Position numbers and translations under genes: made by a program | Assembly: GCA_013697045.1 (NCBI GenBank) | Contig: JACCXJ010000218.1 | Location: forward strand, 1-44,891 | DNA: 44,891 nt | Direction of reading: 5' to 3' | Source of the DNA: Gammaproteobacteria bacterium | GTDB lineage: Bacteria; Pseudomonadota; Gammaproteobacteria; JACCXJ01 | Shown here: one piece after another, positions 4,209-32,411 of the stretch | How the letters are laid out: every line of letters starts with the position of its first letter | Numbering within the stretch: position 1 is the stretch's first letter | Notes under the pieces: model-generated | Seen by the model: only the letters and a program-made list of their open reading frames with translations | Database searches by the model: none | What the model was told of the DNA's origin: nothing

Positions 4209-4274
4209 CCAGATCTATTGACGTGCACCACCAGCCCGCCAGGGCCGCGCGCGCCCGAGGTAAGTGGCTAGGGC

Positions 4275-6343: not shown

Positions 6344-6388
6344 GAAGAATATTTAATCCTAAATCGTTGATTTGGTTGATGAAAACAC

Positions 6389-6416: not shown

Positions 6417-6452
6417 CATCCCATAAAGTCGTTGCAACACCTACAGGAGTAA

Positions 6453-6777: not shown

Positions 6778-6832
6778 AAACCAAACCGGGGGAGGCCAGG
6801 CCCCCCCCAACTACCACCCGGACGAAACGAAA

Positions 6833-7000: not shown

Positions 7001-7085
7001 AAACGTAAACCCTAGGAAGTCGGGCCCAACCGCGGCGGTAACCGCGGCTGGGTCCTGACCACAACCAACTGGATAGGAGTTGATC

Positions 7086-7946
7086 ATGGCTAAGCAGCAT
7101 TCTACCGGGGACCTCTACCAGAGGACCACCGATCGCGTCATCGACGCCCTCGAGCAGGGCGTCGCACCCTGGATCAAACCATGGCGCGGGGGTTCCACGC
7201 AGGGCCTCCCTACCAACCTCTCAACCGGCCAGGAGTACCGCGGCATCAATGTCGTGAGCCTCTGGTGCGCCGCCTTTGCCCGCGGCTTCGAGCACGACCT
7301 CTGGGTCACCCAGGCCCAGGAGAAAGGGTGGCAGGTCCGCAAGGGTGCGAAGTCCGAGTGCATCGTCAAAGTCGGGCAAGTCGTCAAAGACGCCGACGAA
7401 GGCGAGAAAGACGAGCGCACCTTCAGCTACCTCAAGAGCTACCACGTGTTCAACGTCGCCGAAGTCGAGGGGGCGCCCCTTCCCGCTTCCGAACCGACCA
7501 CGGACCACGAGCGCATCGCCGCGGCCGAGGGCCTGATCGCGGCCACCGGGGCGCGCGTTGTTGAACAAGGCGACCGTGCCTGCTACGCGCGTTCGACCGA
7601 CTGCATCTACCTCCCGGCGCTCGGTCGCTTCACCGATGCGGGCGCTTACTACGCCATCGCGCTCCATGAGCTCACGCACTGGACCGGTCACGATGGCCGG
7701 CTGGAGCGGAAGTTCGGGAAGCGCTTCGGGGACGACGCCTACGCCGCCGAGGAGCTGGTCGCCGAGATGGGCTCGGCGTTCCTGTGCGGCCATCTCGGGA
7801 TCGAGGGGCATCTACAGCACCCGGCCTACGTGGACCATTGGCTGAAGGTGCTCAAAAACGACAAGCGCGCGATCTTCACCGCGGCAGCGAAGGCGTCGCA
7901 AGCGGCGGACTACGTGCGGGCGTTTGCTGGGGAGGTGCGGCAATGA
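7086..7946 (+). CDS. ardC: ArdC-like antirestriction protein
   Basis: 286 residues from ATG 7086, chosen because AGGAGT ends 6 bases upstream; a TTG at 7080 is less likely. The N-terminal half is the ssDNA-binding ArdC domain (DLYQRTTDRVIDALEQG, PWIKPWRGG, YRGINVVSLW). The C-terminal half is a zincin-like metallopeptidase domain with HELTHWTGH near residue 195 (HExxH zinc ligands) and a downstream AAEELVAEMGSAFL glutamate. The family protects incoming plasmid or island DNA from host restriction by binding single strands. It is translationally coupled to the next gene through an ATGA overlap at 7943-7946. Confidence 0.9.
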   Translation: MAKQHSTGDLYQRTTDRVIDALEQGVAPWIKPWRGGSTQGLPTNLSTGQEYRGINVVSLWCAAFARGFEHDLWVTQAQEKGWQVRKGAKSECIVKVGQVVKDADEGEKDERTFSYLKSYHVFNVAEVEGAPLPASEPTTDHERIAAAEGLIAATGARVVEQGDRACYARSTDCIYLPALGRFTDAGAYYAIALHELTHWTGHDGRLERKFGKRFGDDAYAAEELVAEMGSAFLCGHLGIEGHLQHPAYVDHWLKVLKNDKRAIFTAAAKASQAADYVRAFAGEVRQ

Positions 7947-8215
7947 ACGTCAAACTCGGAAAACTCTACGCCTATATGCCGATCGAGCTCGACGTGGTTG
8001 ACGGCCCCAAGATGCGCCCCGGCCTCGAAGAGGGCCAGCTCGTGCGGGTCGTGAATCTCAAAGGCTACCCGCGCGCCACCTTCGGTTACTGCTATATCGC
8101 CGATCCCTACCGCAAGATCGCTCTCGGCAGGCAATACGAGCCATGGGTCTTTGGCCTGTGCCGGATCGCCAGTCTCCAGGAACCTACGCGCAAGGGCACG
8201 CGGAGGGCCTCATGA
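7943..8215 (+). CDS. Hypothetical protein between ardC and parB
   Basis: 90 residues, starting in an ATGA overlap with ardC and ending in an ATGA overlap with parB (8212-8215), so the three are co-translated. The sequence is a small beta-rich protein (LEEGQLVRVVNLKGYPRATFGYCYI). It has no signal peptide or membrane segment. I do not recognise the family. Its tight coupling suggests a role in establishment or partition of the island, which is an inference from position only. Confidence 0.65.
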   Translation: MNVKLGKLYAYMPIELDVVDGPKMRPGLEEGQLVRVVNLKGYPRATFGYCYIADPYRKIALGRQYEPWVFGLCRIASLQEPTRKGTRRAS

Positions 8216-9138
8216 CCACAAAAGGACCTCGCGCTCGGGCGCAGCCCGCCAAGGCGGCGCCGACCGGGAGACTGAAGAAGCTCCGTTTGGATCTCGTCTA
8301 CCCGAACCCCCAGCAACCGCGTAAGGACTTCGACGAGACGAAGCTGGCAGAGCTGGCCGCCTCTATTCGGACGCACGGCCTCTTGCAGCCCATCCGGGTC
8401 CGGCCCGACAGCATGGGCACCTATATGGTGATTTGCGGCGAACGCCGCTATCGCGCTCACCTGCTGGCCGGCATGAAGGAGATAACGGCACACGTCGATG
8501 GCGTCGATGATCAGTCGGTCTTCGAGCAGTCCATCGTCGAGAACCTCCAGCGGGTCGATATCACGCCGCTCGAAGAGGGGCACGCCTTCAAGACGTGCCT
8601 CGAAATGTCCGGCGGCGAACCGGCTGCACTCGCACAGCGCCTCGGGCTAAAGCAGCCCTGGCGGATCACCGAGCGGCTGTCGCTCCTGACCCTTCGCGAC
8701 GACTACCAGGCCATGCTCGCACGAGGCACCCTCGGCCCCTCCCAAGCCTACGAGATGTCGCGGCTCCCCCCGCCCCTGCAAGATGAGCTCTTGAGGCTCA
8801 TCAGAGCGGGTGCGTGCGACAGCTACAACAGGCTGCGGGCGAGCGCCGAAGGGCTCCTGCAACGGGACAAACAGGGGGAGCTCCTGGAGCGCACGGATCC
8901 ACCGACCGCGCAGGAACAGGCCGCGCTCTCCGGCCTGGAACGCCTTGTCGAAAAACTGTGCGCGCTGCTGAGCAAGAGCTTCAGCTCGAAGGAGATGGTC
9001 CTCGTCAAGAAGATCAACCCCTACCGCGCAGGCGTGGTCGCCGATCAAATCAAGGTCATCCAGCAGCATCTCTCCGCAATGGAGAAGATGTTGCGGGCCA
9101 CGGCCGTCGCGACGGCGGCGGCTGGGGGCGGCGGATGA
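8212..9138 (+). CDS. parB: ParB/Spo0J-family partition-like protein
   Basis: 308 residues. The N-terminal ParB nuclease-like/CTPase domain is clear: VYPNPQQPRKDFDETKLAEL near residue 31, then HGLLQPIRV, GERRYRAHLLAG and ENLQRVDITPLEE. A helix-turn-helix follows (AALAQRLGLKQPWRITERLSLL), then a charged C-terminal helix pair. No ParA lies beside it, so this is an orphan ParB as found in many islands, where it may act in DNA binding or regulation rather than segregation. A possible 22-residue frame starts in an ATGA overlap at its end (9135-9203). The start at 8212 is set by coupling; a longer GTG start at 8143 is unlikely. Confidence 0.9.
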   Translation: MTTKGPRARAQPAKAAPTGRLKKLRLDLVYPNPQQPRKDFDETKLAELAASIRTHGLLQPIRVRPDSMGTYMVICGERRYRAHLLAGMKEITAHVDGVDDQSVFEQSIVENLQRVDITPLEEGHAFKTCLEMSGGEPAALAQRLGLKQPWRITERLSLLTLRDDYQAMLARGTLGPSQAYEMSRLPPPLQDELLRLIRAGACDSYNRLRASAEGLLQRDKQGELLERTDPPTAQEQAALSGLERLVEKLCALLSKSFSSKEMVLVKKINPYRAGVVADQIKVIQQHLSAMEKMLRATAVATAAAGGGG

Positions 9139-9238
9139 GCAACCTACAATGGGCAATGGGGGGTCTGGCGCTGGGCCGCATCCTAAGACTGGCGTCGGAG
9201 TGAAGTAAAACACTTTTCCCTATAAGCTACGATAAGCT

Positions 9239-9586
9239 ATGAAAACCGCGAGCTTCTTCTCCTACAGCGGCCCGGGCCGCATCAGCATCGCCCGGTACGC
9301 CTCTCGGGGCCTCCAAGGATATCGGACCTATAAGGCGCTGGCGCCCCGGCAAGACATGCTGCGGATGCCTTACGATGAGTACCGGACGGAGTATTTCAAG
9401 ATCCTGTCGGACCTCGATCCGGCCCAGGTCGCCGAGGACCTCGCCGCCCTCGCCGCACCCCATGAGCCCATCCTCCTCTGCTGGGAGCGCCCGCCGTTGA
9501 CGGAGAAGAACTGGTGCCACCGCACCATGGTCGCCCAATGGCTCGAGCGGTCGCTCGGGATGCGGGTGCCAGAGATCAAGTCCTAG
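9239..9586 (+). CDS. DUF488-like protein
   Basis: 115 residues. The middle and end carry the hallmark pattern of small DUF488 proteins: ILLCWERPP, then NWCHRTMVAQWLE, with two Cys and the CHR motif. The start ATG is preceded by a short AT-rich spacer with repeats of ataagct but no strong ribosome site. The biochemical role of the family is not settled; it occurs often in phage and island DNA. It is separated from parB by about 100 bases and could be read by the same promoter. Confidence 0.75.
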   Translation: MKTASFFSYSGPGRISIARYASRGLQGYRTYKALAPRQDMLRMPYDEYRTEYFKILSDLDPAQVAEDLAALAAPHEPILLCWERPPLTEKNWCHRTMVAQWLERSLGMRVPEIKS

Positions 9587-9777
9587 CCCCTCCGCCAGGC
9601 TGAGTCCTACGGGAGCGGCAGCTTGGAATCGAACCAAGAATTCATGGCAGGAAAACCATGAGCTCGCCTTGAACTGCCGCAAAGTGCTTTGCAACCCCCC
9701 TCAAGTCAATTTCACGACCAAAAAAACAACACTGGGAGCCCGATTCGCGACACGTGCGCCGTAGAAAATTACCCCCC

Positions 9778-10110
9778 CTACCCCTGCCACCTACTCCCCT
9801 CGCTCGCGCTCTTCCGCGAGTGGCACGAACCGCAGAGCGCCTGGAGGTTATCCCTCGCGGCGCGGTTCCCCCCTTGGCGAATGGGCTGGATGTGATCGAC
9901 CAGGGTGGCCGTGATGCGTCTGCCCTCCCGATCACCGCGCACCCTGAAGTGCTGGTACAGCTTCGAGATGAGATTATTGCGGATGGCGAGGGTTTTAACG
10001 TGCCCGAAGCCAACACAAAGCACCCGTTCATGGTGAGGGTGTGGAGGTCCGCCAGTCCAAAGGCCTAGGCATGCAGGAAGAGATACGCTGTAGCAGCCGG
10101 GAAGCCCCAA
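9778..10110 (-). pseudogene. HNH endonuclease remnant
   Basis: The minus-strand frame ends with a recognisable HNH core: TLVDHIQPIRQGG, DNLQALCGSCHSRK. The part before it is degenerate: where phage HNH proteins have a first Cys-x-x-Cys, this reads YQHFR. The first 40 residues do not look like a real N-terminus. I read it as a decayed small HNH nuclease of the kind found beside phage terminases. No terminase is present here. Confidence 0.6.
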
Positions 10111-10259
10111 CCGGCTCCTGTGAACAGCAGGGTGATGGTACAGCTATTGAGGCAATGATGGGGAAACTCGGGAACGGAACTAGCTGGAACCTAATGCCCT
10201 GTCGGAGAACCACGCCCCAGGTGGGCGGGATGGACTTCACGGATGGCGACTTGTAGCCG

Positions 10260-10510
10260 TAGGAGGTGCTCAGGGTGATGCAGCGCACGCCCAGATCGTC
10301 GAGGCGGGCGAGACCGGCGTAGGTGGTCGGGCCGCGAGTCGAACACCAGGTGCGCGGGCCAGTGCCTCTTCTTCCAGAAGTCGAGGAAGCGAAAGAGCGC
10401 CTCGGGCTCTTCGCCCTTGCGCAGGTCGGCGTCGGCATAGAAGGCGCGCGCGTCGTGGTCATGGGCGAGAAGGACACTCCGCTGGCGACGGCTGCGCTCC
10501 GAGGCTGGCC
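10260..10510 (-). pseudogene. Transposase remnant (DDE type)
   Basis: Read on the minus strand, the pieces HDHDARAFYADADLRKGEE, ALFRFLDFWKKRHWPAHLVF and TTYAGLARLDDLGVRCITL lie in order but in more than one frame, with a shift at about 10320. They match the middle of a large transposase family of IS4-like character with the VFDSR motif. No terminal repeats or complete frame remain. Confidence 0.55.
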
Positions 10511-10715
10511 CCTTCCCGTTCTCGATGGCTCCCAGCGTATCAGCAATCTTTCCCGCTGCCAGCTAACCGACGGGCTTGACCTCGCCCGGGCCGCGCCGCC
10601 GAAATTCATGAGGATCCAGACCGCGCGCCGGGGCGGCCCCGCCCCGCGCCATTCGTCCCAGGGATCTTCCCAAGAACGCAAACCACCAAAAGCTGTACCG
10701 CGTACGGAGGCCACC

Positions 10716-10994
10716 ATGCACATCCGACTCTCGACCCGTTCGATCGTGCTCACCCTGTGCCTCGTCCTCACCGCTGGACCCGAGACGCTCGCGGCCGGCA
10801 AGCGGCCGAAGAACCAGCGGAACCACATCGAGGTGGCCAACCTCAACATCCTGCACGGTCTCGCCTGTGGCCCGCCAGTGCCTGGTGACGGCGACCAGCG
10901 CCGCGTGCGCGACCGCCTCGATCTCTTGGTCCAGCATATCGCCGCGGCTGGCTGCCCGGACCTCATGACGCTGCAGGAGAACGTGACTGCATGA
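10716..10994 (+). pseudogene. Exo/endonuclease/phosphatase (EEP) gene, 5' part
   Basis: From ATG 10716, with CGGAGG 5 bases upstream, there is a signal peptide (STRSIVLTLCLVLTAGPETLAAG) and then the EEP start: IEVANLNILHGL with the Asn metal ligand, and PDLMTLQENVT with the catalytic Glu. The frame stops at 10992. The matching C-terminal half (SGDLNAEPGSP, SDHSGNQL) reappears at 13.4-14.1 kb in the same direction. This appears to be one secreted EEP-family enzyme gene opened by about 2.5 kb of other DNA with loss of the middle. Confidence 0.7.
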
Positions 10995-11093
10995 TCTCTT
11001 GCGAGGAGGCCAAGCTCTATCTGAACCAGTGCGGGTTGAGTAGGATCGATAGGGAACGGCGATGGAATGCCGTGCGAGTCGTTGTGCCGTTGA
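10990..11093 (+). pseudogene. Excalibur calcium-binding domain fragment
   Basis: MISCEEAKLYLNQCGLSRID starts at 10990, overlapping the stop of the EEP fragment. After a one-base shift near 11050 it continues GNGDGMPCESLCR and stop at 11093. SCxEAKxYLxQCG followed by DGxPCExLC is the excalibur pattern. In one frame the product would lose the calcium loop. Confidence 0.55.
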
Positions 11094-11189
11094 CTTTGAT
11101 TAATTAACGAGGCCTCGCCAGTACGCCACTGCATCTCTGGTCGATGCCCGCCGTAGGGCGAGATCCGCCCTCAGCATTGGGTTCTCCTT

Positions 11190-11216
11190 AGGCCTGCTCA
11201 GCGGGCCTCTTCTTTT
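11190..11216 (+). terminator. Terminator-like hairpin
   Basis: A stem of 8 pairs (aggcctgc with gcgggcct, one G-T, 3-base loop) is followed by cttctttt. It separates the EEP/excalibur remnants from the RcnB-like gene. Confidence 0.55.
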
Positions 11217-11508
11217 CGGGATCCTGTCCGTCGCCAGGGTACCGCTGGCTCGGGGCGTCCGCTTCAGCATTAGCTGAGCGGCGCTTTAGTCCAATTCCCC
11301 AAGGCGATGCGGCAAGGCCGGAATAGGTGGCCCGGAGCGGCAGTTGCGCAGGCGTAGCGGGAGTAGCCTGCTGCAGGGGCCGCCGCCCCTTGGGCCCGAG
11401 CCAGTGCCCTCTCCTCAGATTCGATTCAGCTCGGGTTCAGGCTGGGAGGCGCATGCTCCGATTTTTACGAGGGGTGTGTTTGAACATGACGCACGGGAGC
11501 CTCTGAAC

Positions 11509-12396
11509 GTGAAAACATTGGTGGCGGCTCTAGCCGCCTTAGGCGCGATGGTGATGGTGTCGGCGCCGGCCTTCGCAGATCGAGACGATCACCGCGGCCG
11601 CCACGAGCGCGGCGACCAATCCGGTTGGTATCGCCGCGGCAGCGACCGAGGCCAGCTTCTAAGCCACGGCAACGAAGGCGGCCAGCATGGCCGGGCGCAG
11701 CGACCAGGGCGGTCGTCCGCAAGGCTGGCTCGGCGGCCACAAGGCGGCCAGCAGGGCGGACCGGGCGAGAACCGGCTTCTTGGCGGGCTGTATAGCGGCC
11801 GCAACCGCAGTTTCCACCGGGTCCCGGACGATCGCGTCCAGGATCAGGCCGGGCGCAATTGGGGCCGCAACGATCACGGCCAAGGTAGCAGGCGCGACGC
11901 GCATCGTGACGATGGCGGCCATGACGGCCGGCGCGACTGGAGCCATCACCATCGCGGTCGGGACGATTGGGCCGGCGGCCGGCGCGGCCATAATTGGGGC
12001 GGCGACGACAATCGGGATCGGGATTGGCGCAAGCACGAACGCTGGCGGCAGCACGCGCATCTGCAACGCGACTTCAACCGACCGCGCTACACCGACTCGC
12101 GGCACGTGCCGTACGGGCGCTATTTCGACAACAGCTACGCCCACATCGTCGGCGGCTATTATGGCGGCAATTACCGCTGGTGGTCCTACCCCAGCTGGCG
12201 CAGGCCGTACCGGCCTTATGCGGTGGGCTATGTCCTGCCGGCCTATATCGATTGGTATCCGGTGCCCTATGACCTCCATTACCAGCTGCCGCCGGCCCCT
12301 TATGGTTGCCGCTACATTCTGGTGGACGGCGACATCCTGTTGATCGGGGCGACAGGGCTCGTGCTCGACGCGCTGCTGGTGCTGTCGTCCTATTGA
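11509..12396 (+). CDS. RcnB-like secreted protein with His/Arg/Asp-rich middle
   Basis: 295 residues from a GTG at 11509, behind GGGAG at 11496-11500. The signal peptide is residues 1-24 (LVAALAALGAMVMVSAPAFA). A long low-complexity middle rich in Gly, Arg, His and Asp (residues about 25-200) could bind metal. The end is the RcnB/DUF-type domain: PYDLHYQLPPAPYGCRYILV, then DGDILLIGATGLVLD. RcnB proteins are periplasmic and linked to nickel/cobalt export. This one is longer than the family norm of roughly 100-150 residues. No efflux gene adjoins, so the metal role is inference. Confidence 0.7.
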   Translation: MKTLVAALAALGAMVMVSAPAFADRDDHRGRHERGDQSGWYRRGSDRGQLLSHGNEGGQHGRAQRPGRSSARLARRPQGGQQGGPGENRLLGGLYSGRNRSFHRVPDDRVQDQAGRNWGRNDHGQGSRRDAHRDDGGHDGRRDWSHHHRGRDDWAGGRRGHNWGGDDNRDRDWRKHERWRQHAHLQRDFNRPRYTDSRHVPYGRYFDNSYAHIVGGYYGGNYRWWSYPSWRRPYRPYAVGYVLPAYIDWYPVPYDLHYQLPPAPYGCRYILVDGDILLIGATGLVLDALLVLSSY

Positions 12397-12452
12397 TACC
12401 GGTTGATACCGGGGCGCGCGGGCGCGTACATGGGGCTGGAATTCCTATTCAT

Positions 12453-12577
12453 GAACGCCAACTGGCGATTACGAGGTCAATTTATGGCACGAGAAGCTCG
12501 GCAAGAACACTGCGCCAACGAGCATCAAGTCGAAGGGAGAGACGGTCAACTGGACGCTCGGCCCCGTGAAGTGCTGA
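12453..12577 (+). pseudogene. C-terminal scrap of a cupredoxin-like protein
   Basis: The frame reads TPTGDYEVNLWHEKLGKN, then KGETVNWTLGPVKC and stop at 12577. GxYxxxxWHExLG with a late beta strand is characteristic of methylamine-utilisation/plastocyanin-like periplasmic proteins. There is no start and an upstream in-frame stop is close. It is a truncated remnant. Confidence 0.5.
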
Positions 12578-12660
12578 CACGGCGCGGGGGGTGCCAGGCG
12601 CCTCACCAGCGTACGGGCCGGGCGGTCTTAGGTGTCCGTGGCGGCGGAGGCTCGACGCTC

Positions 12661-13047
12661 ATGCGCATCCTCCGCTCACTCGCCGTGGTCGTGGTCGCCC
12701 TCACCGTCGCTAGTGCGGACGCCGCCGGGCCGCAGAATACCGGCCTGGGCCGCGCCCTCGCCACCAAGCTCATGGCGAAGAAGGCCCTCCAGGCGAAGAC
12801 GCGGACGCATACCACCGACTTCGGCACCGAGGCGATCGGGTGCATCACGCTCACCCGCTGGGAACTCCGCGACTTCGGCTACCGGGGGCACGCCTTCCTT
12901 TGCGAGGAGGGGGCGACCAGTGAGGTCCTCGGAGCCGTCCTCAACCGCGTCGGCTTCGTCCGCTGCCAGATCAGGGGCTTCTACGTCGGTGACGGCTGCT
13001 ACGACTTCGATATCTGCGGCGTGCCCGAGACGGCGTGTATAGACTAG
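12661..13047 (+). CDS. Small secreted protein, Cys-rich
   Basis: 128 residues. The signal peptide is MRILRSLAVVVVALTVASADA (cleavage near residue 21). The mature part holds six Cys (GCITL, FLCEE, VRCQI, DGCYD, DICG, TACID) spaced to form disulfides in the periplasm. No family is recognised. It ends on a GC-rich hairpin (13047-13072). The ATG at 12661 is the start because a signal peptide begins there; the longer frame upstream is not protein-like. Confidence 0.6.
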   Translation: MRILRSLAVVVVALTVASADAAGPQNTGLGRALATKLMAKKALQAKTRTHTTDFGTEAIGCITLTRWELRDFGYRGHAFLCEEGATSEVLGAVLNRVGFVRCQIRGFYVGDGCYDFDICGVPETACID

Positions 13048-14839: not shown

Positions 14840-15757
14840 GCCTCACCGGATCAACAGACCGGCGAGCCCCAGGTCATCCCCGCCAGCGACGGGACGGCTT
14901 ACCATCTCAGTCCCAATCCAGATCAAGAACCGGCTCTCGACGGACGGGAAGGCCCAGCATCAGCCCCCTCGGCCAAGCTTTGCGCGAGTACGGAGGTGCG
15001 GCCAATCAGGAGAGGCTCCCGTCGCTCTTCCTGCCGGTCCAGCGCGCGGCTGAGCGCTGTGCCTGGCTCAAGCAGATGGCCGAGGGGACCGATTTGGCAC
15101 AAGCACTGGACAGTGCCATGATCGCTGAGGCACGAATCGACCCTCGCTGGCACCGCGTCAACAGGCGCCGGGCCAAGACGGGGTACGCAGACTCCAGACA
15201 CGTATCGTGAAGGCGACGAAGACAGGAGAGAGCACCTGCCACAAGCAGGTCCACCACCAAGAGGCGTCGCTGGGTGCTTTAGCGAGGAGGCGTTCGACGA
15301 TGAGTCTGTGTTCCTGCAATCCGTCTGCCCGTTGGATCGCGCGTGCTGGCCGGGAACGTCGGACACTGCTTGGGCTCGGCGTGGACCGGCGGGTGCTCGA
15401 CAGGGCGGGCCTACTTGCGTCACTGCCGAACGTCTGCGTCGCCACTGGGACCCAGCGCCATTCTCGATCAGGGAGCTGGCTCGTCAACCTGGTGTTTCCG
15501 AGGCGAGCGCGCGCCAGGCGGTGGTTCGGGACGAGGCAGCGGTCTGCGCCGCCGAGCGGGCAGAGAAGGCCGGGCGTGGCTCTTCGGACCAGTCTGAACT
15601 GATGGCACTATCCGGCAGCTATGGTGTGGCGGTTCGCCGCTTGGCTCCTACCGATGCAAACGAAGGCTCCCGACTATGGGTGCTCGGGCCAGTCGATTAC
15701 GCCCGCGCGTTCTTACCCAGGGATCCCACACTGGACAGGTTTTGACACGGACAACAA
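14836..15757. other. Decayed region, weak coding traces only
   Basis: A frame from ATG 14836 to 15210 (124 residues) starts in overlap with the recombinase remnant but has a low-complexity start. Its later part (QRAAERCAWLKQMAEG) is somewhat protein-like. At about 15430-15600 a frame reads WDPAPFSIRELARQPGVSEA, suggesting a degraded helix-turn-helix. Nothing else is convincing on either strand. I treat the whole stretch as mobile-element debris. Confidence 0.4.
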
Positions 15758-15759
15758 AC

Positions 15760-16218
15760 ATGACTGATCTGCTTATCTCAATCTCAGGGCCAAGTCAAGA
15801 ACGACCCCCGCACCCTCCGGGTACTGTAGCATGGCTTGAGGATTTTGCGGCGAGGGTACGGAATGTCGACTTCGAGCGGGCGCGTAGATTGTTCAGTCCA
15901 ACCATCTTTGGGTTCGGGACAAAGGCGGACGCTTATGACAGCCTAGATGAGTGGCATCATGACCAGTGGAGCCACGTGTGGCCAAGAACCACCGGGTTTC
16001 GGTTTGACCTGATGACGCTACGCACGATCCTGAGCGTTGACGGGTCACTATGTTGCATCGCATGCGAGTGGGGGAGCAAGGGGGCGCGCGAGGATGGTTC
16101 CCTTTTTCAGCGACACGGTCGCAGCTCTATCTTGTTGGCCCGCACCTCAAGCAATGAGCTAGGCTGGGTCGGGGTTCACAGCCACTTTTCTATGCCGCCC
16201 GGGCCAGTTGATTCGTAA
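15760..16218 (+). CDS. NTF2-like (SnoaL/DUF4440-type) protein
   Basis: 152 residues. The pattern of an N-terminal helix (GTVAWLEDFAARVRNVDFER), a second segment (LFSPTIFGFGTKADAYDSLD), a Trp-rich turn (QWSHVWPRTTGFRFD) and a beta-rich end is that of the NTF2-like cone fold used by small isomerases, cyclases and binding proteins. I cannot pick catalytic residues. The ATG at 15760 was chosen over a longer frame because upstream sequence is debris. It lies 105 bases before the amidotransferase gene and has the same lower-GC character, so it probably belongs to the cargo operon. Confidence 0.65.
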   Translation: MTDLLISISGPSQERPPHPPGTVAWLEDFAARVRNVDFERARRLFSPTIFGFGTKADAYDSLDEWHHDQWSHVWPRTTGFRFDLMTLRTILSVDGSLCCIACEWGSKGAREDGSLFQRHGRSSILLARTSSNELGWVGVHSHFSMPPGPVDS

Positions 16219-16325
16219 AGGTAATATAAAAGTAAATACCGACGAGGGGCACAGGTTATTTCAGCGTGAGCCTGTAATTGAAAGAGTATTCTGGGATCGA
16301 CCGGTCACTAGGCAAGGCCTGAATG

Positions 16326-17852
16326 ATGTGTGGAATTGCCACAGTTTTTCGAGCAAGACCATACAGCGCCGAGCCGTTCGTGCGAACCATGCTTGGTAGA
16401 CTCCGGCATCGAGGTTCTAGCTACGACGAGATTTGGTCAAGTCCGTCGGTAGCCCTTGGAGCCAACCGCTTGGAGATCGTTGACCCGGCAGGAGGCAGGC
16501 AACCGGTGTCCAACGAATCGGAAACCCTATTCGCAGTTTTTAACGGAGAGATCTATAACCACCGTGAGCTGTCTCGGCTTTTGACAGGCCGCGGCCACCG
16601 CATCCGCTCTAAATGCGACAGCGAAATCCTAGTCCATGCCTTCGAGGAATGGGGATCGGGTATGTGCGACCATCTGCGGGGCATGTTCGCCTTCGCCCTT
16701 TACGACGCCCGGCATGATCGAATTCTACTGGCGCGTGACCCGGCCGGGGTGAAACCGCTCTACGTCGGCTATGGACACGACAACTCGTTTTTTGCAGCGT
16801 CCGAAGCGAAGGCCTTGGTTGGGTTTGCCACCTCCGCCGATCTGCTTGCCCCTGGACACCTCCACGACGGCTCCCAACCCGTTGCTTACCATCCTCCTCA
16901 GGAAACAATGCGATACCATAGCTTTGGCGAGGCAGCCGCTCATTTACGCGAGCTTCTCAATGAGGCTGTCACATTGCGCCTTCCGGAAGATTTGCCTTTT
17001 GCCGTTTTTCTGAGCAGCGGCATTGATTCCTCGCTGATCCTCGCCTTGGCGGCGAGGGCGCGTCCTGATGTGATTGCCATCACGTTCGGGCTTCCAGATT
17101 CGCCTGAGGTCCGGGACGCGAAGCAGTTCTGCCAATGCCTTGGCGTTCGCCACGAAGTGGTCGAGCTACCTTTCCAGGCTCTGGTAGCCCGTTACGAGGA
17201 GGTAATCCGGCACCTCGAAAGCTTTGAACCCAATTTGGTCAGGGCATCCCTCATTACCCACGCGCTTTGTGAGCGAGCGCGGCAGCTCGGCGTGCGCGTC
17301 GCCTTGGCTGGTGAGGGTGCTGACGAACAGTTCGCAGGTTACGAGGACTTCCGGCACCTCCCCGAAGAAGAACTTGATCGCGTCCTGCAAGCCTTCTTCG
17401 ACGACCTTCACCGCACTCAGCTACTGCGCTGGGACAAGATCGCCATGGCCCACATGGTAGAAGTCCGCACTCCCTTTATGGATCGCCGAGTGGTGGATTT
17501 CGCGCGTTCCGTGCCTCCCTCGTTCAAGCTGAGTCGGCCCTCTGGAAAGGCAACACCGCTGGCGAAAGCAATTCTTGCGGAAGCGGCAAAAGACCTTCTT
17601 CCTGAATCGATCAGGCTGCGAGCGAAAATCGCAATGGATGACGGAGTCACAGCAGGCGGTGCGCGCCAATGGAATAGGCTCTTATCCGCCCATTTTGCCT
17701 CCTGCCCGCTTCCACCCCTACCGGAAACTATTTGTGTACAATTTGCTATCACCAATAAGGAGGAGCTTGTTAATCTGTCCTTGATGCTACGTTATCTTCC
17801 ACCGGAATTCATTTCCACCTCTCGGATCACCGTACGCAAGACACCGATATGA
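16326..17852 (+). CDS. asnB-like: Asparagine-synthetase-like class II amidotransferase
   Basis: 508 residues. Of two adjacent ATGs (16323, 16326) the second gives Met-Cys-Gly-Ile, which places the glutaminase Cys right after the initiator as the class requires. Glutaminase residues are in place: NRLEIVD (Arg), FNGEIYNHREL near residue 72 (Asn, Gly, Glu) and CDSEILVHAFEEWG (Asp). The synthetase half has the pyrophosphate loop FLSSGIDSSLI near 230 and GEGADEQFAGY near 330, then MAHMVEVRTPFMDRR. So glutamine hydrolysis and ATP-dependent amide formation are both plausible. It is shorter than many AsnB proteins, and such homologues often modify acids other than aspartate. The stop overlaps the next start (ATGA). 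Confidence 0.88.
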   Translation: MCGIATVFRARPYSAEPFVRTMLGRLRHRGSSYDEIWSSPSVALGANRLEIVDPAGGRQPVSNESETLFAVFNGEIYNHRELSRLLTGRGHRIRSKCDSEILVHAFEEWGSGMCDHLRGMFAFALYDARHDRILLARDPAGVKPLYVGYGHDNSFFAASEAKALVGFATSADLLAPGHLHDGSQPVAYHPPQETMRYHSFGEAAAHLRELLNEAVTLRLPEDLPFAVFLSSGIDSSLILALAARARPDVIAITFGLPDSPEVRDAKQFCQCLGVRHEVVELPFQALVARYEEVIRHLESFEPNLVRASLITHALCERARQLGVRVALAGEGADEQFAGYEDFRHLPEEELDRVLQAFFDDLHRTQLLRWDKIAMAHMVEVRTPFMDRRVVDFARSVPPSFKLSRPSGKATPLAKAILAEAAKDLLPESIRLRAKIAMDDGVTAGGARQWNRLLSAHFASCPLPPLPETICVQFAITNKEELVNLSLMLRYLPPEFISTSRITVRKTPI

Positions 17853-19312
17853 AAACGCCACGCTTCATAACAGTTATCACCGGTCTGTGCCTCGTTCTGT
17901 CAGGCACGAGTCACGCCGCCGAGTCCTTGAATAAAATCAAGGTCGCCCACTGGGGGCACGAAAAGATCCTCATTTATGCACCCCTATACATTGCCATGGA
18001 TGGAGGATTCTTCGAAAAGGAAGGTCTCGACATCGAACTCGTCTATTCCGGCAATGACGATCAGGTCTTCGCCACAGTCCTCTCTGGGGCCGCCTCGTTC
18101 GGCATCGGAGATCCGGCTTTCACCGCCATTTCCCGCGAAAAGGGGGGGGAGGGAAAAGTGGTCGCTGCTTTGGTCGGGCGCGTCGCCAACTGGGCTGTCG
18201 CAAAAGACCCGGCCATCCAGCCGTTCACTGATCCAAAAAAACTAAACGGCTTGCGTGTCACCTCGTTTCCCTCTCCATCAACGACGTTTACCATCCTCTC
18301 TGGCCTGAAGAGGGACCTCAATCTCTCCAAGATGGTCATCAAGCAACTCGCCTTCGGGACCGAACAGGCCGCCCTCGAACGCGGCGAAGCCGATCTCGCC
18401 ATCATGCTGGAGCCTCAAGCATCCGTCGCGGAATCCCAGGGCTTCCGCGTGGTCTGGTCCCTGGCCGAATACTACGGCGACTTCGCTCTGACCGGGGTTA
18501 CCGCCATCGATTCATTCATCAAGAACGAGCGGGACACGGTCCAGCGATTCGTCAACGCTCTACAGAACGCCCTTACCTTCATCGGCAAGAGTCCAGAGGC
18601 GGCCGCTGGCATGCTCGGCAAAAGCTTCCCCACGCTTTCCGCGGCTATCGTTCAGTCCGCGACCAAGCGAATGGTGGAGGATAAAACAATCCCCCGAACC
18701 GCCGTAATCAACAAGAAAGCGTGGCTCAAAACCCTCAACATCCGGAAGACCATGGGAGACCTGAAGTCCATGGAAATCGCAGACGCTTGCTTAGACTCGT
18801 CATTTGCCGAGAAGGCAGTCTTCGATCCCAAACCACTTCATCACGACTCACCTACAGCAGAACCTCCTACAGCAGCGCCTCCTACAGCAGCGCCTCCTAC
18901 AGCAGAACCCGACTTCCCCGATTCTTCTCTGGGTTGGAGCACTCTCGGATTCTGGGCCGACGTGTCCTCCCTCGTAGGCCTTCTATCCGCGGCATTCTCT
19001 TTAGCCATTGTCGCTAAGACGCTTCTTGAGCATCGAAAAGGACATGTCGCTTGGAACAAATTATCGGAGTTTGAGCAGAACTGTGGGCGGATCATCGCAA
19101 ATTGCTTTGCAAACTCCGTAGATAGAGTTGAAAAGGACAAAATTCTCCGCGCACTGACCGACAACCACAGGATTGAACAGTCCGCGGCTAACGACGTGCT
19201 AGCTAAGTATTTAAAGATCGGCCTGATCGAGGAAATTGGGAAGACCGGTACCTGTAAACCACTCGTGACCCCATTCGCCAAACTCGTTCCCCTTTTTCAG
19301 CTCTTTCGTTAA
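17849..19312 (+). CDS. Substrate-binding protein fused to TM helix and winged-helix tail
   Basis: 487 residues with unusual order. Residues 1-24 are a signal peptide (FITVITGLCLVLSGTSHAAE). Residues 26-330 are an NMT1/THI5- or SsuA-like binding domain (HEKILIYAPLYIAMDGGFF, then FGIGDPAFTA near residue 86). Residues 335-354 form a Pro-Thr-Ala linker from four 15-bp repeats. Residues 374-392 are a membrane helix (LVGLLSAAFSLAIVAKTLL). Residues 393-487 are a charged cytoplasmic tail with a winged-helix-like stretch, ILRALTDNHRIEQSAANDVL and KYLKIGLIEEI. Normal binding proteins end after the second part. The layout resembles a one-component transmembrane sensor. It is coupled to the amidotransferase gene by ATGA. 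Confidence 0.8.
   Translation: MKTPRFITVITGLCLVLSGTSHAAESLNKIKVAHWGHEKILIYAPLYIAMDGGFFEKEGLDIELVYSGNDDQVFATVLSGAASFGIGDPAFTAISREKGGEGKVVAALVGRVANWAVAKDPAIQPFTDPKKLNGLRVTSFPSPSTTFTILSGLKRDLNLSKMVIKQLAFGTEQAALERGEADLAIMLEPQASVAESQGFRVVWSLAEYYGDFALTGVTAIDSFIKNERDTVQRFVNALQNALTFIGKSPEAAAGMLGKSFPTLSAAIVQSATKRMVEDKTIPRTAVINKKAWLKTLNIRKTMGDLKSMEIADACLDSSFAEKAVFDPKPLHHDSPTAEPPTAAPPTAAPPTAEPDFPDSSLGWSTLGFWADVSSLVGLLSAAFSLAIVAKTLLEHRKGHVAWNKLSEFEQNCGRIIANCFANSVDRVEKDKILRALTDNHRIEQSAANDVLAKYLKIGLIEEIGKTGTCKPLVTPFAKLVPLFQLFR
18851..18910 (+). repeat. Four tandem 15-bp repeats coding a Pro-rich linker
   Basis: Units cctacagcagaacct or cctacagcagcgcct repeat four times without interruption, encoding PTAEP/PTAAP. 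The repeats keep the frame, so copy-number change by slippage would alter only linker length between the periplasmic domain and the membrane helix. Confidence 0.85.
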
Positions 19313-19348: not shown

Positions 19349-20665
19349 ATGAAAAGCACGACTGACGTTGAGATTGTGCCATGCATCGACAGTCCCCTGT
19401 ATGCACCGGTCTATCTCGCTATTATTGGCCTAGCAAAACGGTGCGCCGCACAAGTTCCCGAGCGTTCTTCAGCGCTACCGCTATCTATAGGTTCCCAGTC
19501 CTTCAATCTCCAGTATGGACCGTCAGCTGGAGGCGATGTGCAGGTATTGACTCACTTAGATTCGGACGAGAAGTCAACGCTGCGCATCGGAATCTGTGAT
19601 CCGATAACCGTTATAGAACGAAACTACGAAGAAACTCGCTCGCTCAGACGCTTAACATGCATCCCGAAGTACCAGATCATGGGTGTTTTTATAAACAAGA
19701 TCGCCCTATCGCTGGTTACAAAGAAGCGACGCCTCCCCCAAGCTAGAGACAAGAGTGGGAAACCCCGAACGGGGTTGGCACTGGAGGAGTATGAGAGACT
19801 TATGGCGGTGCACCAGATAATCAACCAACTAAAAGACGACAGCCTGAATTTTCCTGGAGTTTTTAACCGTTGCGATCCTCACAGCCGAGTGAAATATTCT
19901 TTTTGGTCGAAGGGAAGGACTACTCAGTATTTGGTTAAGCATTTCCTGGAAATCCAAACTCAGGAGAGAACAGAGGAGGGGGGAGGCGAACGTAGGCAGG
20001 AGCCGAGTTTTATTCATCCTGACCAAGTTCTTAACGAGCTTTTAACAAGCCATAAAGATGTGGCGATAACACACGATCCGTGGACGATAACGTCGACGGC
20101 TGTTGCGAATCAATTTCAATTTCTGTGCCGTGAATGTTTTCCCTCGATTGAATTTCCATTCTCCTGCATAGTTATTCCGAAAGCGGGTAGGTCGCCGGAA
20201 TACGATACGCTTTTGCGACATTTCATGGCCGCGCTGCTTGAAGGTCTAATCGTTGTCACGAGGCATTCCGGCTATGCGGTGAAACTTCTTACGGATTGGG
20301 CGCCTTTCTTCAGGAACTATGGGCTGGCACATCCGGACAAGGTTGGATCTATTATATCTGGCGCAATCAACCACTTACTCAAGATCGGGTGTTTTGCGGG
20401 TAATCTCATCCCTCAAAGCACCGCGTGGGAATATGCGCTAGCCATGGATCCTGACGGGTGGCAAGCCAGGGTGGCAGAAATGAAAGAGATTACCGGTGCG
20501 GAAACCGCTTGGACAGACATTGCGTGGGAGATAGTTCACAAATCGCTTGATTGGCAGTTTGTTGAGGAGCTACCGACCGATGATGACTATCTAGCTGGAG
20601 TTCGGCGGTACTTCCTAAGGGCATTCAAGGGTCCTGAACCTAATGCAATTGCCGCCAACCGTTGA
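19349..20665 (+). CDS. Substrate-binding-like protein without signal peptide
   Basis: 438 residues. The start VEIVPCIDSPLYAPVYLAII matches the first strand and helix of NMT1/SsuA-type binding proteins. RIGICDPITVI near residue 80 aligns with GIGDPAFTA of the upstream gene. There is no N-terminal hydrophobic or lipoprotein signal, so the product should stay in the cytoplasm. A charged insert (residues about 130-225, with ERTEEGGGERRQE) and a long helical end are not seen in usual binding proteins. Codon use is AT-richer than anything else in the window. It lies 36 bases after the fused sensor gene and overlaps the ATPase gene. Exact family is not recognised. Confidence 0.65.
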   Translation: MKSTTDVEIVPCIDSPLYAPVYLAIIGLAKRCAAQVPERSSALPLSIGSQSFNLQYGPSAGGDVQVLTHLDSDEKSTLRIGICDPITVIERNYEETRSLRRLTCIPKYQIMGVFINKIALSLVTKKRRLPQARDKSGKPRTGLALEEYERLMAVHQIINQLKDDSLNFPGVFNRCDPHSRVKYSFWSKGRTTQYLVKHFLEIQTQERTEEGGGERRQEPSFIHPDQVLNELLTSHKDVAITHDPWTITSTAVANQFQFLCRECFPSIEFPFSCIVIPKAGRSPEYDTLLRHFMAALLEGLIVVTRHSGYAVKLLTDWAPFFRNYGLAHPDKVGSIISGAINHLLKIGCFAGNLIPQSTAWEYALAMDPDGWQARVAEMKEITGAETAWTDIAWEIVHKSLDWQFVEELPTDDDYLAGVRRYFLRAFKGPEPNAIAANR

Positions 20666-21425
20666 GGAACAACCGCTCATTTCTCTGGAGGGAGTACAGG
20701 TTGTCTACGGAGCTAACCACTTGTTTACCCCCGTTCATTCGAGGATTGTTGCCGGCGAGCTCTTATCAATTGTCGGCCCGAGCGGCTGCGGAAAAACCAC
20801 CTTTCTTCTTGTACTAGCTGGTCTACTGCGGCCAGCGGTAGGCAACCGCGTATTAGAAAACAAACTAGTAGACAGTAGAATTATTTATGTGCCGCAACAG
20901 GACGCGTTACTTCCTTGGCGTTCGCTACGGGCGAATCTGGGCTTGGGGAGCGAACTGCAACATTTAGGCCTAGCTTCGGCGGCTCGCGTCGAGAAATGGG
21001 CAAGGATTTTTAATGTGACTAGTTTTCTAGAAAAGCGAGTGCATGAGTTATCGGGCGGCATGCGAAAGCGCATCTGCCTCGCTCGCGCCTTTTGCGCGGA
21101 TCCTTCCGTGGTGTTGTTAGATGAACCCTTTAATAATCTAGACTTTGTTGATCGCCGTCGTGTGGAGACGTTTCTCCGCACGTGGATAGCTGAGGACCGA
21201 CGGGCCGCGGTATGCGTTACGCACGACATTGAGCAAGCGGTAGCGATGGGTGACCAAGTCGGGTACTTCAGCAAACCGCCCGACGATCCGAGGAACGACC
21301 TCATGCGGTTCGATGTGATGCCGATTCCTGAGTCGTTGCGAAAACATCCCCCTTCCCAGCGCTGGGCACATCCCGAGTTTCACGGTGTCGTCGAAAAGAT
21401 AGAGCGAATGTTTGATCACGGCTAG
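20643..21425 (+). CDS. ABC transporter ATPase, SsuB/TauB type
   Basis: 260 residues with all nucleotide-binding motifs: Walker A GPSGCGKTTF near residue 44, Q-loop VPQQDALLPWRSLRANL, signature LSGGMRKRICLARAF, Walker B VVLLDEPFNNLD and H-loop VCVTHDIEQAV. It belongs to the nitrate/sulfonate/taurine importer class, like the permease that follows. The start ATG lies inside the preceding gene (23-base overlap), indicating coupling. The C-terminal tail is about usual length. Confidence 0.92.
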   Translation: MQLPPTVEEQPLISLEGVQVVYGANHLFTPVHSRIVAGELLSIVGPSGCGKTTFLLVLAGLLRPAVGNRVLENKLVDSRIIYVPQQDALLPWRSLRANLGLGSELQHLGLASAARVEKWARIFNVTSFLEKRVHELSGGMRKRICLARAFCADPSVVLLDEPFNNLDFVDRRRVETFLRTWIAEDRRAAVCVTHDIEQAVAMGDQVGYFSKPPDDPRNDLMRFDVMPIPESLRKHPPSQRWAHPEFHGVVEKIERMFDHG

Positions 21426-22188
21426 TCCACGCTCCAGTATGCTTGTCCGCGTCGGTCTACGGTTCTTGCCCCTGCTCGTCTTCCTCGCAGGCTGGCACCT
21501 CATCTGCGCTGGCAATCAGCGTCGGACGTTTCTTTTCTCAACGCCGGGGCGGGTCGCTCAACAGTTTTGGGAGGATCTGACCTCGGGTGTTCTCGCCGGC
21601 CATGCCGGGATCACGGCTTCTGAGGCTTTGGTAGGCTTCATCTTGGCTACTTTAGCCGGTACCATTATCGGTCTGCTTCTGGCATCGTGGTCCAGGCTTT
21701 CAGACATAGTGGCGCCTTATCTTGGTATGCTGGGTGCCGTGCCTGTTTATGCTCTCGCACCGATGACCATCATCTGGTTCGGAATCGGGTTCTGGCAGAA
21801 GGCCGGCATTGCCTTCCTTTCGACTGTGTTTGTGGCTACGAATCAGGCGTTCCAAGGGGCCAGCCATCCTCCGGATGACCAGATGTTGATTTTCCGGGCC
21901 TTCCGGGCGAGACCTTTGCAGGTGCTCTGGAAACTGCGTTTTCCTGTCGCCTTGGCATGGGTAGCGTCCGGATGCCGCCTGAATGTCGGCTTCGCCTTCC
22001 TGGGCGCTTTTCTGGGCGAGATCATCTCATCGAATGTCGGGCTTGGCCACTACATCATGAAAGCGAGCAGCCTCTACGACGTGCCTCGGGTGCTTAGTGG
22101 GGTTCTCGCGCTGCTCATGGTTGCATTTGCCATAGATAAGGCGGTGAGTGCGCTATTTGTCGCACGCGCCCGTTCGATGGTTCGCTGA
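21412..22188 (+). CDS. ABC transporter permease, SsuC/TauC type
   Basis: Up to 258 residues. The frame begins at TTG 21412, overlapping the ATPase; an ATG at 21439 is the alternative start. Five to six membrane segments are visible ([55 protein letters not shown], and others). The EAA loop region is [20 protein letters not shown] and the last helices are [19 protein letters not shown] and [15 protein letters not shown]. Together with the ATPase it would make a homodimeric importer. It ends 15 bases before the hsdM remnant. Confidence 0.9.
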
Positions 22189-22202: not shown

Positions 22203-22676
22203 GTGCCTACTGGCCCTGCTCTTTCACACGACCCGCAGGTCGCGAGCGCCGAGGGCGAAAAGGGTGGCGAGTTCTACACGCCACGCTGCGTGGTTAAGCT
22301 GCTGGTCGAGATGCTAGAACCCTACCGCAGCCGGGTGTACGACCCCTGCTGCAGCTCCTCGGGCATGTTCGTGCAATCGATCGAGTTCATCCGTCACCAC
22401 GCCAACGGCAACCGCAACGGTGGCAAGGCGACGGGCGACATCTCGTTCTACGGCCAGGAGTCGAACTATACCACTTGGCGGCTCGCGAGGATGAACCTCG
22501 CCATTCGCGGCATCGACGGCCAGATCGCCCACGGCGACCGCCATCCCGACCTCAAGGCCGACTTCATGCTCCCCAATCCGCCCTTCAACGTCAGCGACTG
22601 GGGCGGCGAGCGCCTGCGCGACGACAAGCGCTGGCGTACGGCATGCCGCCCGCGGGCGACGCCAACTTCGCGTTGA
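22203..22676 (+). pseudogene. hsdM: Type I restriction methylase (HsdM) fragment
   Basis: The central part of HsdM remains: [20 protein letters not shown], the SAM motif region [14 protein letters not shown] and [14 protein letters not shown]. The N-terminal domain is missing. At about 22640 the frame shifts; [11 protein letters not shown] continues in another frame for a few codons and is lost at the helicase start. Where active enzymes have Cys-Gly-Ser-Gly-Gly, this has Cys-Ser-Ser-Ser-Gly. It is a relic of an older type I system whose hsdR tail appears at 32.5 kb. Confidence 0.8.
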
Positions 22677-22683: not shown

Positions 22684-26258
<3,575 letters not shown>

Positions 26259-26262
<4 letters not shown>

Positions 26263-29060
26263 AGAAGCTCATCGAAGTCGCCTTGCCGCTTCCCGAGATC
26301 AACGACGCATCGGCCTACGATAAGATGCCGGGGATCGGGCCGCACCCGAAGGGCATTCACCACTGGTGGGCGCGGCTCCCGCTGCCAACAGCGCGGGCAA
26401 TGCTATTCGCGTCAGTGGTTGACGATCCGAGCGCGCACCCAGAGAAATGGCCGACAGAAGAAAGCCAGGACACCGAGCGCGACAGACTGTTCGACATCAT
26501 GCGGCGGATGATGGGGAAGAAGCTGCACGAGCAGCCGCAGGTCTATGCCGAGGCGCACGCCGAGATGCTCAAGGATACCGGTGGAGAGCTACCGGTCGTC
26601 TTCGACCCGTTCGCTGGTGGGGGCTCAATCCCGCTTGAGGCCAACCGCCTGGGCTTCGAGGCCCATGCGGGCGACCTAAACCCGGTGGCGGTGCTTCTCA
26701 ACAAGTGCAACCTGGAGATCGCACCTCGTTGGGCTGGCCGTGCGCCCGTGAATCCCGCGGATCGCAAGCAGATCGGCGGCACCGAAGCCTGGCGCGGCAC
26801 GCACGGGCTTGGGTCCGACGTGCGCTACTACGGTCGCCTCGTCCATGACCGCGCGCGGCATGAGCTGGGGCACCTCTACCCGGAGGCGCGCCTGCCGAAG
26901 GAGTACGGCGGGGGGCAGACGAACGTGATGGCCTGGATCTGGGCACGTACAGTCGTGAGTCCGGACCCAGCGGCGCGCAGGGCGCACGTACCACTCATCA
27001 GCACTTTCTGGCTTTCCAGCAAGAAGGGAAGCGAGGCGTGGCTCGAGCCGGTGGTGGAAAAAGCGAAGGGCTCCTGGCGCTTCGAGGTTCGCACGGGGAC
27101 ACCGAAGGACCGGTTAGCGGTCAAGATAGGGACGAAGACGGGGCGCGCCCAGTTCCGCTGCCTTCTGACCGGCACGCCGATTCCGGACGATCACATTAAG
27201 GCCGAGGGAATCGCGGGCAAACTCGGAATGGTTTTGCTTGGGATCGTGGCGGAGGGGAAGCGAGGACGTCTCTACCTATCTGCAGATGTGGAACACGAAC
27301 GCGCTGCTGATGTAGATCCGCCGAGTGTTGAGTCCGGGGAAATGCCCGACAACGCTCGTTGGTTCTCTCCGCCGCTTGTCGGCTTTAAGACTTACACGTC
27401 TCTTTTCACTGCCCGCCAGCTCACCGCAGTGGCGACGTTGAGCAACCTCGTCAAGGCGGTCAGCGCGGACGTACGTCGGGAGGCACAGGTCGCGGGTTTG
27501 CCAGCCGAAGAGTCAGACGCCTACGCGCGCGCGGTCACGACATTCCTCGCGCTGGCCGTGAACCGTTGCGCGGATTTCAACAATGCGATTTGCCGATGGA
27601 GTCCCAGCAACCAGAAGGTGATGAACCTGTTTGGTCGCCAGGCCATTCCAATGGTGTGGGACTTCGCTGAAGCGAACATTCTCGCCGACTCTGTCGGCGG
27701 CTGGAGCACGTGCAGCGGACACGTGGCAGATTGCATTGAGGTCATTGCGGTTGGGAACAATCTGGCCTGCGAGGCACGCCAGATCGATGCCGCCGCGGGT
27801 GCCGATGGGCTGAATAGCCTCCTCGTCAGCACCGACCCGCCTTACTACGACAACATTGGCTACGCTGTACTCTCGGACTTCTTCTACGTCTGGCTTCGGC
27901 GCACGATCGGCGGCCTCTACCCGGACCTCTTCAGCACGGTGCTTGTGCCGAAAATGCCCGAACTCATTGCGTCGCCCGAGCGCTTCGGCGGTGACAAGCA
28001 TAAAGCGAAGGAACACTTCGAGTCCGGCTTCCGCCGTGCGTTCACCAGGCTACGCCAAGAGATGGACCCGCGGTTTCCACTAACGGTCTACTACGCCTTC
28101 AAACAGGCCGACGAGGAGAGCGGGGATGTAGACGAGGGCACAGAGGGCGCTCCGGGCGTGGACCTCACCACGGGATGGGAGACGCTCCTTGAGGCGCTAA
28201 TCGCGAGCGGTTTCCAGATCACGGCTACCTGGCCTGTGCGTGCATCACAGAAGTGGCGCATGGTGTCGATGGGCACCAATGCTCTTGCTTCCTACATCGT
28301 GCTCGCCTGTCGCTGTCGCGCTGACGACGCTCCGCAGACCGACCGTCGCACCTTCGTCGCCGAGCTGAAACGCGAGCTGCCAGTCGCGCTTCGGCATCTC
28401 CAGCAAGGGAACATCGCACCGGTTGACTTTGCCCAAGCGGCCATCGGACCGGGAATGGCGATTTACTCGCGCTACCGGCATATCCTGGAGAGCAACGGCA
28501 GGGCGATGAGCGTGCGCCCGGCTCTGCATCTCATCAATCAGACCCTGACCGAGGTGCTCTCAGAGCAGGAAGACGAGTTCGATGCCAATACACGCTGGGC
28601 AATCGCCTGGTTCGAGCAGCACGGTTTCGATGAGGGAGAGTACGGCGACGCGGAGTTGCTTAGCAAGGCGAAGGTGACCTCGGTCGGCGGTCTCGAGCAG
28701 GCGGGCCTCATCCACTCCAGGCGCAGCAGGGTGCGGCTGCTGCGGCCCGACGAGCTTCCGCGGGATTGGGATCCTGGTACCGACAAGCGCCTCACGATTT
28801 GGGAGATGACCCATCATCTTGTGAGGCTCTACTTCCAGGAGCAGGCCGGCGACGCAATCACTTCCGTCCTGCTGCGCCGGATCGGGTCGCGTGGCGAGGT
28901 CGCCCGCGACCTTGCCTACCGGCTCTTCGATGTCTGCGAGAGGAAGAAACGATCTCAGGAAGCGCAGGCCTACAACGCCCTCGTCCTCGGGTGGCCGGAG
29001 ATCGCGCGGCTGGCGCGATCGGCGAGGTCCGAGCAGGCGAGATTGTTCGAGGAAAGGTAA
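26259..29060 (+). CDS. DUF1156 adenine-specific DNA methylase
   Basis: 933 residues. The start KKLIEVALPLPEIN with HPKGIHHWWARLPL is the DUF1156 N-terminus. The SAM motif VVFDPFAGGGSIPLEA is near residue 117, and catalytic STDPPYYDNIGYAVLSDFFY is near 525, so both parts of an N6-adenine methyltransferase are intact. The order (binding motif, long insert, catalytic motif) fits the family. It is coupled to the helicase by ATGA and followed by the DUF499 gene after 3 bases. By analogy with other methylase-containing defence modules it should mark self DNA; the recognised site is unknown. Confidence 0.9.
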
Positions 29061-29063
29061 CCG

Positions 29064-32411
<3,348 letters not shown>

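Follow-up and report, generated by a model that had tools for sequence, protein, structure and literature searches.

A contig of 44,891 nucleotides from a gammaproteobacterium (JACCXJ010000218.1 of assembly GCA_013697045.1; the whole stretch is called the window below) encodes a substrate-binding protein (SBP) in which the binding protein of a NitT/TauT importer has been turned into a transmembrane protein, with one membrane helix and a tail behind the binding domain; among the homologues compared, the tail is singular to this protein. The SBP gene belongs to a cassette together with an ATP-binding cassette (ABC) importer, a binding-protein-like neighbour termed P3 and an AsnB-type enzyme, and this wider cassette, which recurs in other phyla, is a stronger discovery than the single tailed SBP. 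The parts of the SBP are as follows:

17849-19312, plus strand: SBP open reading frame (ORF) with ATG start, 487 amino acids (aa)
17849-17917, plus strand: signal-peptide-like N-terminus, residues 1-23 (sequence, hydrophobic segment)
17918-18820, plus strand: NMT1/SsuA-type periplasmic binding domain, residues 24-324 (Pfam, AlphaFold2 model, Foldseek)
18821-18943, plus strand: Pro-rich linker, residues 325-365 (15-bp repeat; low-confidence model without structure)
18944-19024, plus strand: single transmembrane helix, residues 366-392, in the model to 396 (hydropathy, AlphaFold2)
19025-19309, plus strand: predicted cytoplasmic tail, residues 393-487 (charge, low-confidence helices, codon use)

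This order of parts had been proposed in an initial annotation, and as far as the topology is concerned it held up. The protein starts with basic residues, followed by a hydrophobic stretch at 6-20 and SHA-A, which reads as signal-peptide-like. The NMT1 family (PF09084) was matched at E=6.3e-23 over residues 44-252 (82.2 bits vs a cut-off of 20.5), and the model of the binding domain has predicted local distance difference test (pLDDT) values mostly >90; its Foldseek matches are ThiY-, Thi5- and SsuA-type structures, with ThiY and a thiamine-binding protein among the best. In the Pro-rich linker, Tandem Repeats Finder detects a 15-bp unit repeated 3.9 times (18851-18909), in line with the annotated repeat. 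The single membrane helix was recovered both by hydropathy, where the best 19-residue Kyte-Doolittle mean in the extension is 2.06 at 375-393 (reached by 48 of 2000 shuffles of the extension), and by the AlphaFold2 model of the whole SBP with 17 homologues, which draws the membrane segment as a helix at 366-396. The charge is -3 before the helix, +1 just after it and +4 over the whole tail, and by the charge rule the tail is predicted to lie on the cytoplasmic side, as had been claimed for about 95 residues. The codon use of the extension resembles that of the neighbouring genes in the correct frame, the tail (393-487) scoring +0.18 in frame, whereas the two remaining forward frames give -0.26 and -0.22.

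Relatives were collected by a GTDB scan with the SBP alignment, which returned 181, of which 80 loci were kept; together with the window SBP they make up the 81 secreted homologues compared. Only the window SBP among the 81 extends at least 40 residues past the binding domain, and the same architecture was not found among the 80 fetched loci. Conventional homologues from plasmids and GTDB genomes stop at about residue 324 (alignments A2 and A4), and three other long ORFs in the homologue list are non-secreted fusions. Literature searches found no paper describing either the SBP-helix-tail architecture or the cassette, which is not proof of its absence from print. The single occurrence would also suit a view that we hold to be unlikely, in which the SBP is an ordinary importer subunit with a helix that merely tethers it and a tail, non-specific or decaying, left over from a gene fusion. 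Consistent with it, the end branch of the window SBP is the longest in the SBP tree (1.03, exact placement unsure), the locus looks like low-G+C cargo of a mobile element, and the SBP and P3 genes share a frame with 36 bp between them, which might result from a gene boundary that has broken or is moving. The tail, however, keeps in-frame coding-type codon use, its +4 charge and a helix-forming sequence, and contains no internal stop.

The other genes around the SBP gene are:

16323-17852, plus strand: AsnB-type glutamine-dependent amide synthetase (AsnB), 509 aa (Pfam Asn_synthase 7.5e-58 and GATase_7 7.2e-41; TIGR01536 above cut-off)
19349-20665, plus strand: P3, 438 aa, in the SBP frame and 36 bp past the SBP stop
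20643-21425, plus strand: NitT/TauT-type ABC ATPase, 260 aa, overlapping P3 (Pfam ABC_tran 1.1e-26; alignment A3)
21412-22188, plus strand: NitT/TauT-type ABC permease, overlapping the ATPase gene (Pfam BPD_transp_1 3e-18; alignment A1)
15676-16218, plus strand: upstream SnoaL-like protein, of uncertain cassette membership (Pfam SnoaL_3 5.2e-10)

All parts of a NitT/TauT (SsuABC-type) importer are present in this gene run, namely the secreted NMT1 SBP, an ATPase that keeps Walker A, Q-loop, signature, Walker B and H-loop, and a BPD_transp_1 permease. The annotated claim that the SBP is coded with its own importer stands, and the prediction that SBP, ATPase and permease form a NitT/TauT-type ABC importer in one operon is supported. 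The last 4 bp of AsnB are also the first of the SBP gene (ATGA), and an alternative AsnB ATG at 16326 would expose an N-terminal Cys (MCGI). The usual AsnB ATP motif is SGGxDS; the window AsnB (16326-17852) reads SSGIDS at this place, and the AsnB of a related locus, L037, reads SGGVDS. No homologue of the SnoaL-like protein was found in the related loci, and promoter and terminator scans of the window gave nothing better than shuffles.

The tail was the part for which the annotation had gone furthest, with a winged-helix-like pattern and a one-component receptor built from an importer subunit. The whole-protein model contains tail helices at 402-421, 426-440 and 444-462 at pLDDT 35-55, without wing strands, so that structure prediction offers low-confidence helices only and the suggested DNA-binding or signalling fold did not emerge. 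Scored with a profile built from 14 MarR proteins, the tail reaches 17.3 in the H2-H3 register at residues 436-464 (controls: 79 and 110 for two MarR proteins, 27 for GntR), a value attained by 0 of 100 shuffles but by 11 of 100 fragments cut from the window's HmaABC proteins. The winged-helix-like pattern is weak and not significant, and a winged-helix fold is no more than possible for the tail. No Pfam helix-turn-helix family matched the tail at E up to 10, and other families there were at noise level. Searches for tail homologues gave chance-level matches only in 398 phylum genomes (best besides the window 3.7e-4, mostly in the linker), none in an IMG/VR pattern search, none in plasmids and phages (all E of 1 or more) and none in the seven genomes carrying P3-like loci (a single match at E 0.49); the tail was found in none of the fetched relatives of the SBP. 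An assignment to AAA_assoc_C (PF09821) was dropped, the hhalign score of 10.4 being equalled by 53 of 100 shuffles, and a literature search on the AAA-associated domain returned nothing.

What survives of the one-component receptor is the fusion of an SBP to a helix and a predicted cytoplasmic tail; the receptor role itself is putative, with a tail for which no homologue was found and which is modelled at low confidence. Worked out in full, the SBP domain would read an outside ligand and a winged-helix tail would bind DNA and control the asnB-importer operon, as in CadC/ToxR with the order reversed. We consider this improbable. CadC and ToxR have an N-terminal cytoplasmic Trans_reg_C winged helix and no binding-protein sensor. 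They resemble the window SBP in that one transmembrane helix joins a sensor in the periplasm to a domain in the cytoplasm (for CadC, PMC5430869), whereas the window SBP has its cytoplasmic part at the C-terminus and gives no Trans_reg_C match in Pfam. The topology, the tail's net charge, the H1-H2-H3 spacing of the modelled helices and the alignment of residues 436-464 with MarR H2-H3, unmatched by shuffles, would all suit such a regulator, but the HmaABC fragments that equal the MarR score, the low pLDDT without wing strands, the lack of a Pfam helix-turn-helix match and the absence of the tail from all fetched relatives speak against it.

P3 yielded no Pfam match, signal peptide or transmembrane-like segment. 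A profile of four N-terminal domains of proteins from related loci (L046, L048, L049 and L056) finds it at E=9.7e-4 among all locus ORFs, known SBPs ranking both above and below it, and hhalign aligns it with the SBP set plus non-secreted SBPs at P=8.7e-4 over 240 columns, vs 0.14-0.42 for five shuffles and 0.092 for the reversed sequence. Near its N-terminus P3 has the motif Y-x-P-[LV]-Y-L-A in common with its supposed relatives, and further a DP motif, which reads CDP in P3 and in the L035, L037 and L038 proteins, and G-x-T-T; T-x-x-P-W is common to P3 and the four long proteins. The structure model (11 alignment rows, mean pLDDT 56, predicted template-modelling score 0.60) has binding-protein-fold structures on top in Foldseek (best 6e-7). 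In VIA-align the best row is the regulatory domain of NrtC (8wm7_C, Z 15.4 with 281 residues aligned); CmpC reaches 14.6, and Thi5, CmpA, NrtA and SsuA lie at Z 13.5-14.7, the distance to many SBPs and to Thi5 being small. Thi5, a hydroxymethylpyrimidine synthase, is a suicide enzyme with its own active-site residues; this non-transport protein of the same fold is a high structural match to both the SBP and the P3 models. With medium confidence, the model points to a type-II binding-protein fold for P3, kept in the cytosol like the NrtC/CmpC regulatory domain. Single-sequence searches retrieved no P3 homologue but P3 itself in 185 genomes, and none in plasmids or by GTDB patterns. The four-protein profile A6 found none in 299 phylum genomes, which shows little, as no positive control was among them. 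The P3-like long proteins matched no PDB sequence, viral contigs searched with A4, with A6 and with the permease yielded nothing, and the top Foldseek matches among viral models were general binding proteins only.

The nearest set of related loci comprises L035-L049 (15 loci) and L056. In 7 of the 80 loci (L035, L037, L038, L046, L048, L049 and L056), a P3-like protein is contiguous and on the same strand with SBP, ATPase and permease, and these seven span Bacteroidota, Planctomycetota, Acidobacteriota, Myxococcota, Nitrospirota, Ignavibacteriota and Pseudomonadota. The P3-like protein of L037 (522 aa) matches NMT1_2 at 2.5e-7 and is preceded by a transmembrane segment, those of L035 and L038 combine radical SAM, SBP-like and C-terminal transmembrane parts, and those of L046, L048, L049 and L056 are 658-872 aa long with an SBP-like N-terminus. 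AsnB, as in the window, is encoded in three of the seven (L037, L046 and L048) and a radical SAM plus SerRS-like pair in the other four (L035, L038, L049 and L056), vs one AsnB match and no such pair in the other 73 fetched loci. An importer with a secretion-less SBP-like protein and either AsnB or the radical SAM/SerRS-like pair thus recurs across phyla. In the SBP tree the rows with P3-like neighbours are scattered over deep branches.

The SBPs of these loci differ in how they are held at the membrane. A lipobox (PROSITE pattern) is found in five of seven P3-like relatives vs 6 of 73 others, a contrast that is suggestive only, as the rows are related; by eye, the L038 SBP has a near-lipobox and the L037 SBP a seemingly uncleaved N-terminal anchor. 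The window SBP has no lipobox and carries the C-terminal helix instead. Because most of the P3-like relatives have the lipobox, this helix may substitute for the lipid anchor, and the pattern suggests that this class of cassette needs its SBP membrane-held.

The nearest solved parallel is offered by the cyanobacterial NrtABCD and CmpABCD systems, in which, as is predicted for the window, a NitT/TauT importer comes with a second, cytosolic domain of binding-protein fold; the NrtC structure that heads the VIA-align list for the P3 model is from the NrtBCD-PII complex. In NrtC/CmpC the regulatory domain is fused C-terminally to the ATPase, whereas P3 is a separate ORF beside a plain 260-aa ATPase, and unlike these systems the window has a transmembrane helix and tail on its SBP and AsnB in the operon. 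The SsuA/TauA/ThiY-type importers share the SBP, ATPase and permease families, the operon layout and the fold with the window, but the SBPs compared have no C-terminal transmembrane helix and cytoplasmic tail. Truncation of the NrtC domain leads to ammonium-insensitive uptake (PMC6603209). The corresponding domain of CmpC is a homologue of CmpA and considered regulatory (PMC11349869); it is further described as a nitrate sensor that blocks the ATPases and frees them when nitrate binds (PMC13249358, citing Li et al. 2026).

On this parallel, we tentatively favour, at somewhat less than even chance, an importer that senses its ligand on both membrane faces, with the SBP tail docking on cytosolic parts. 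The SBP would catch a small ligand and hand it to the permease encoded three genes downstream, while its C-terminal helix would keep it at the membrane, a task that falls to a lipid anchor in most of the related cassettes. The tail of 95 residues would most likely dock on P3 or the ATPase, so that ligand binding in the periplasm could act on the activity of the transporter or on P3. The latter, in turn, may gate the ATPase in the manner of the NrtC/CmpC C-terminal domains, in response to the ligand inside the cell or to the product that AsnB makes from it. Since the P3-like neighbour and the importer/P3-like/AsnB set recur without the tail, transport regulation with the helix as a tether is at least equal to gene regulation as a reading. 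The ligand may be guessed to be an amide or a pyrimidine-like molecule, given that plasmid-borne conventional relatives adjoin amidase, acetamidase/formamidase or asparaginase genes (L031 excepted), one of them adjoining thiC, and that the model matches include ThiY and the thiamine-binding protein.

Several points weigh against two-face sensing. No search turned up a homologue of the tail, and its fold is not confidently predicted, which makes its docking an inference; a single, fragmented genome assembly is the only known source of the extension, which none of the relatives carries. P3 is only 12-17% identical to its supposed relatives, its alignment rows were picked for SBP likeness, so that the fold match is not independent of this choice, and in four relatives the P3-like protein exceeds P3 in length and may have a signalling instead of a gating role.

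Importer binding proteins normally inform the cell inside only via the permease or separate sensor kinases. A broader proposal, on the doubtful side in our estimate, is that these loci represent a new, horizontally spread cassette of an importer, an inside sensor of binding-protein fold and a carboxylate-activating enzyme (AsnB or the radical SAM/SerRS-like pair), which would read the same kind of ligand on both faces, and that here the SBP has become a transmembrane receptor passing the outside reading to the inside sensor via its tail. If true, an SBP that spans the membrane and is encoded next to a cytosolic partner resembling binding proteins would let the cell compare outer and inner ligand by simple natural means. 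The recurrence in seven phyla supplies a testable gene set, and the recently solved NrtC/CmpC gating a ready model.

The related loci contain further proteins of interest. SBPs without signal peptide are also encoded in L044 (5634-6533), L045 (5573-6475) and L047 (77-979, minus strand), where they are transcribed divergently from an ordinary importer of the same clade and form one well-supported group in the SBP tree. Homologous proteins of 240-245 aa lie just before AsnB in L037 (5861-6595) and L048 (9451-10170; phmmer 4.7e-15); they match no known family and are absent from the window, and the idea that the 245-aa L037 protein is an isonitrile synthase received no family support. A kinase-like (HATPase) C-terminus of the L056 protein and receiver-like neighbours, suspected by eye, gained no Pfam or PDB support. 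Radical SAM domains stand beside or are fused to SBP-like domains in L035 (7992-10010), L038 (3848-5926) and L056 (9800-10570), and the SerRS-like catalytic domain beside them is 318-328 aa long. The radical SAM parts weakly resemble prokaryotic viperins (L038 1.3e-11, far below cut-off; L035 4.9e-12). On its two sides the L038 cassette has a candidate defence protein of the PDC-S41 type (5.9e-289) and an AriA-like ATPase (1497-3473 and 11103-12782).

Directly downstream of the window cassette lie HmaA, HmaB and HmaC (22684-32411; PADLOC, 1677, 1017 and 1169 bits), and a signalling or defence role was considered with them, in which a small messenger amidated by AsnB would be sensed or recycled by the importer together with both binding proteins, to the benefit of HmaABC. 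The defence-type neighbours of L038 and the viperin-like radical SAM parts of L035 and L038 could be taken in the same sense, but evident defence neighbours occur in only two of eight cassettes (the window and its seven relatives) within the regions scanned, the viperin-family score is 44 vs a curated cut-off of 180 bits, and islands gather unrelated cargo; we regard such a role as very unlikely.

With a G+C content of 50-58% vs mostly 60-70% around it, and with an integrase side before it and the HmaABC defence genes behind it, the cassette has the look of mobile-element cargo. The integrase side (2719-13044) carries a tRNA-Arg at 2719, phage integrase arm and central domains at 2972-3970, ArdC anti-restriction and ParB-like genes. 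Between the permease and HmaA, a 157-aa N6_Mtase fragment (22203-22676) covers profile positions 17-155 of 311 and looks truncated. Farther downstream, an int-alpA RNA is located at 39312-39380 and an sRNA-Xcc1 match at 42059-42140.

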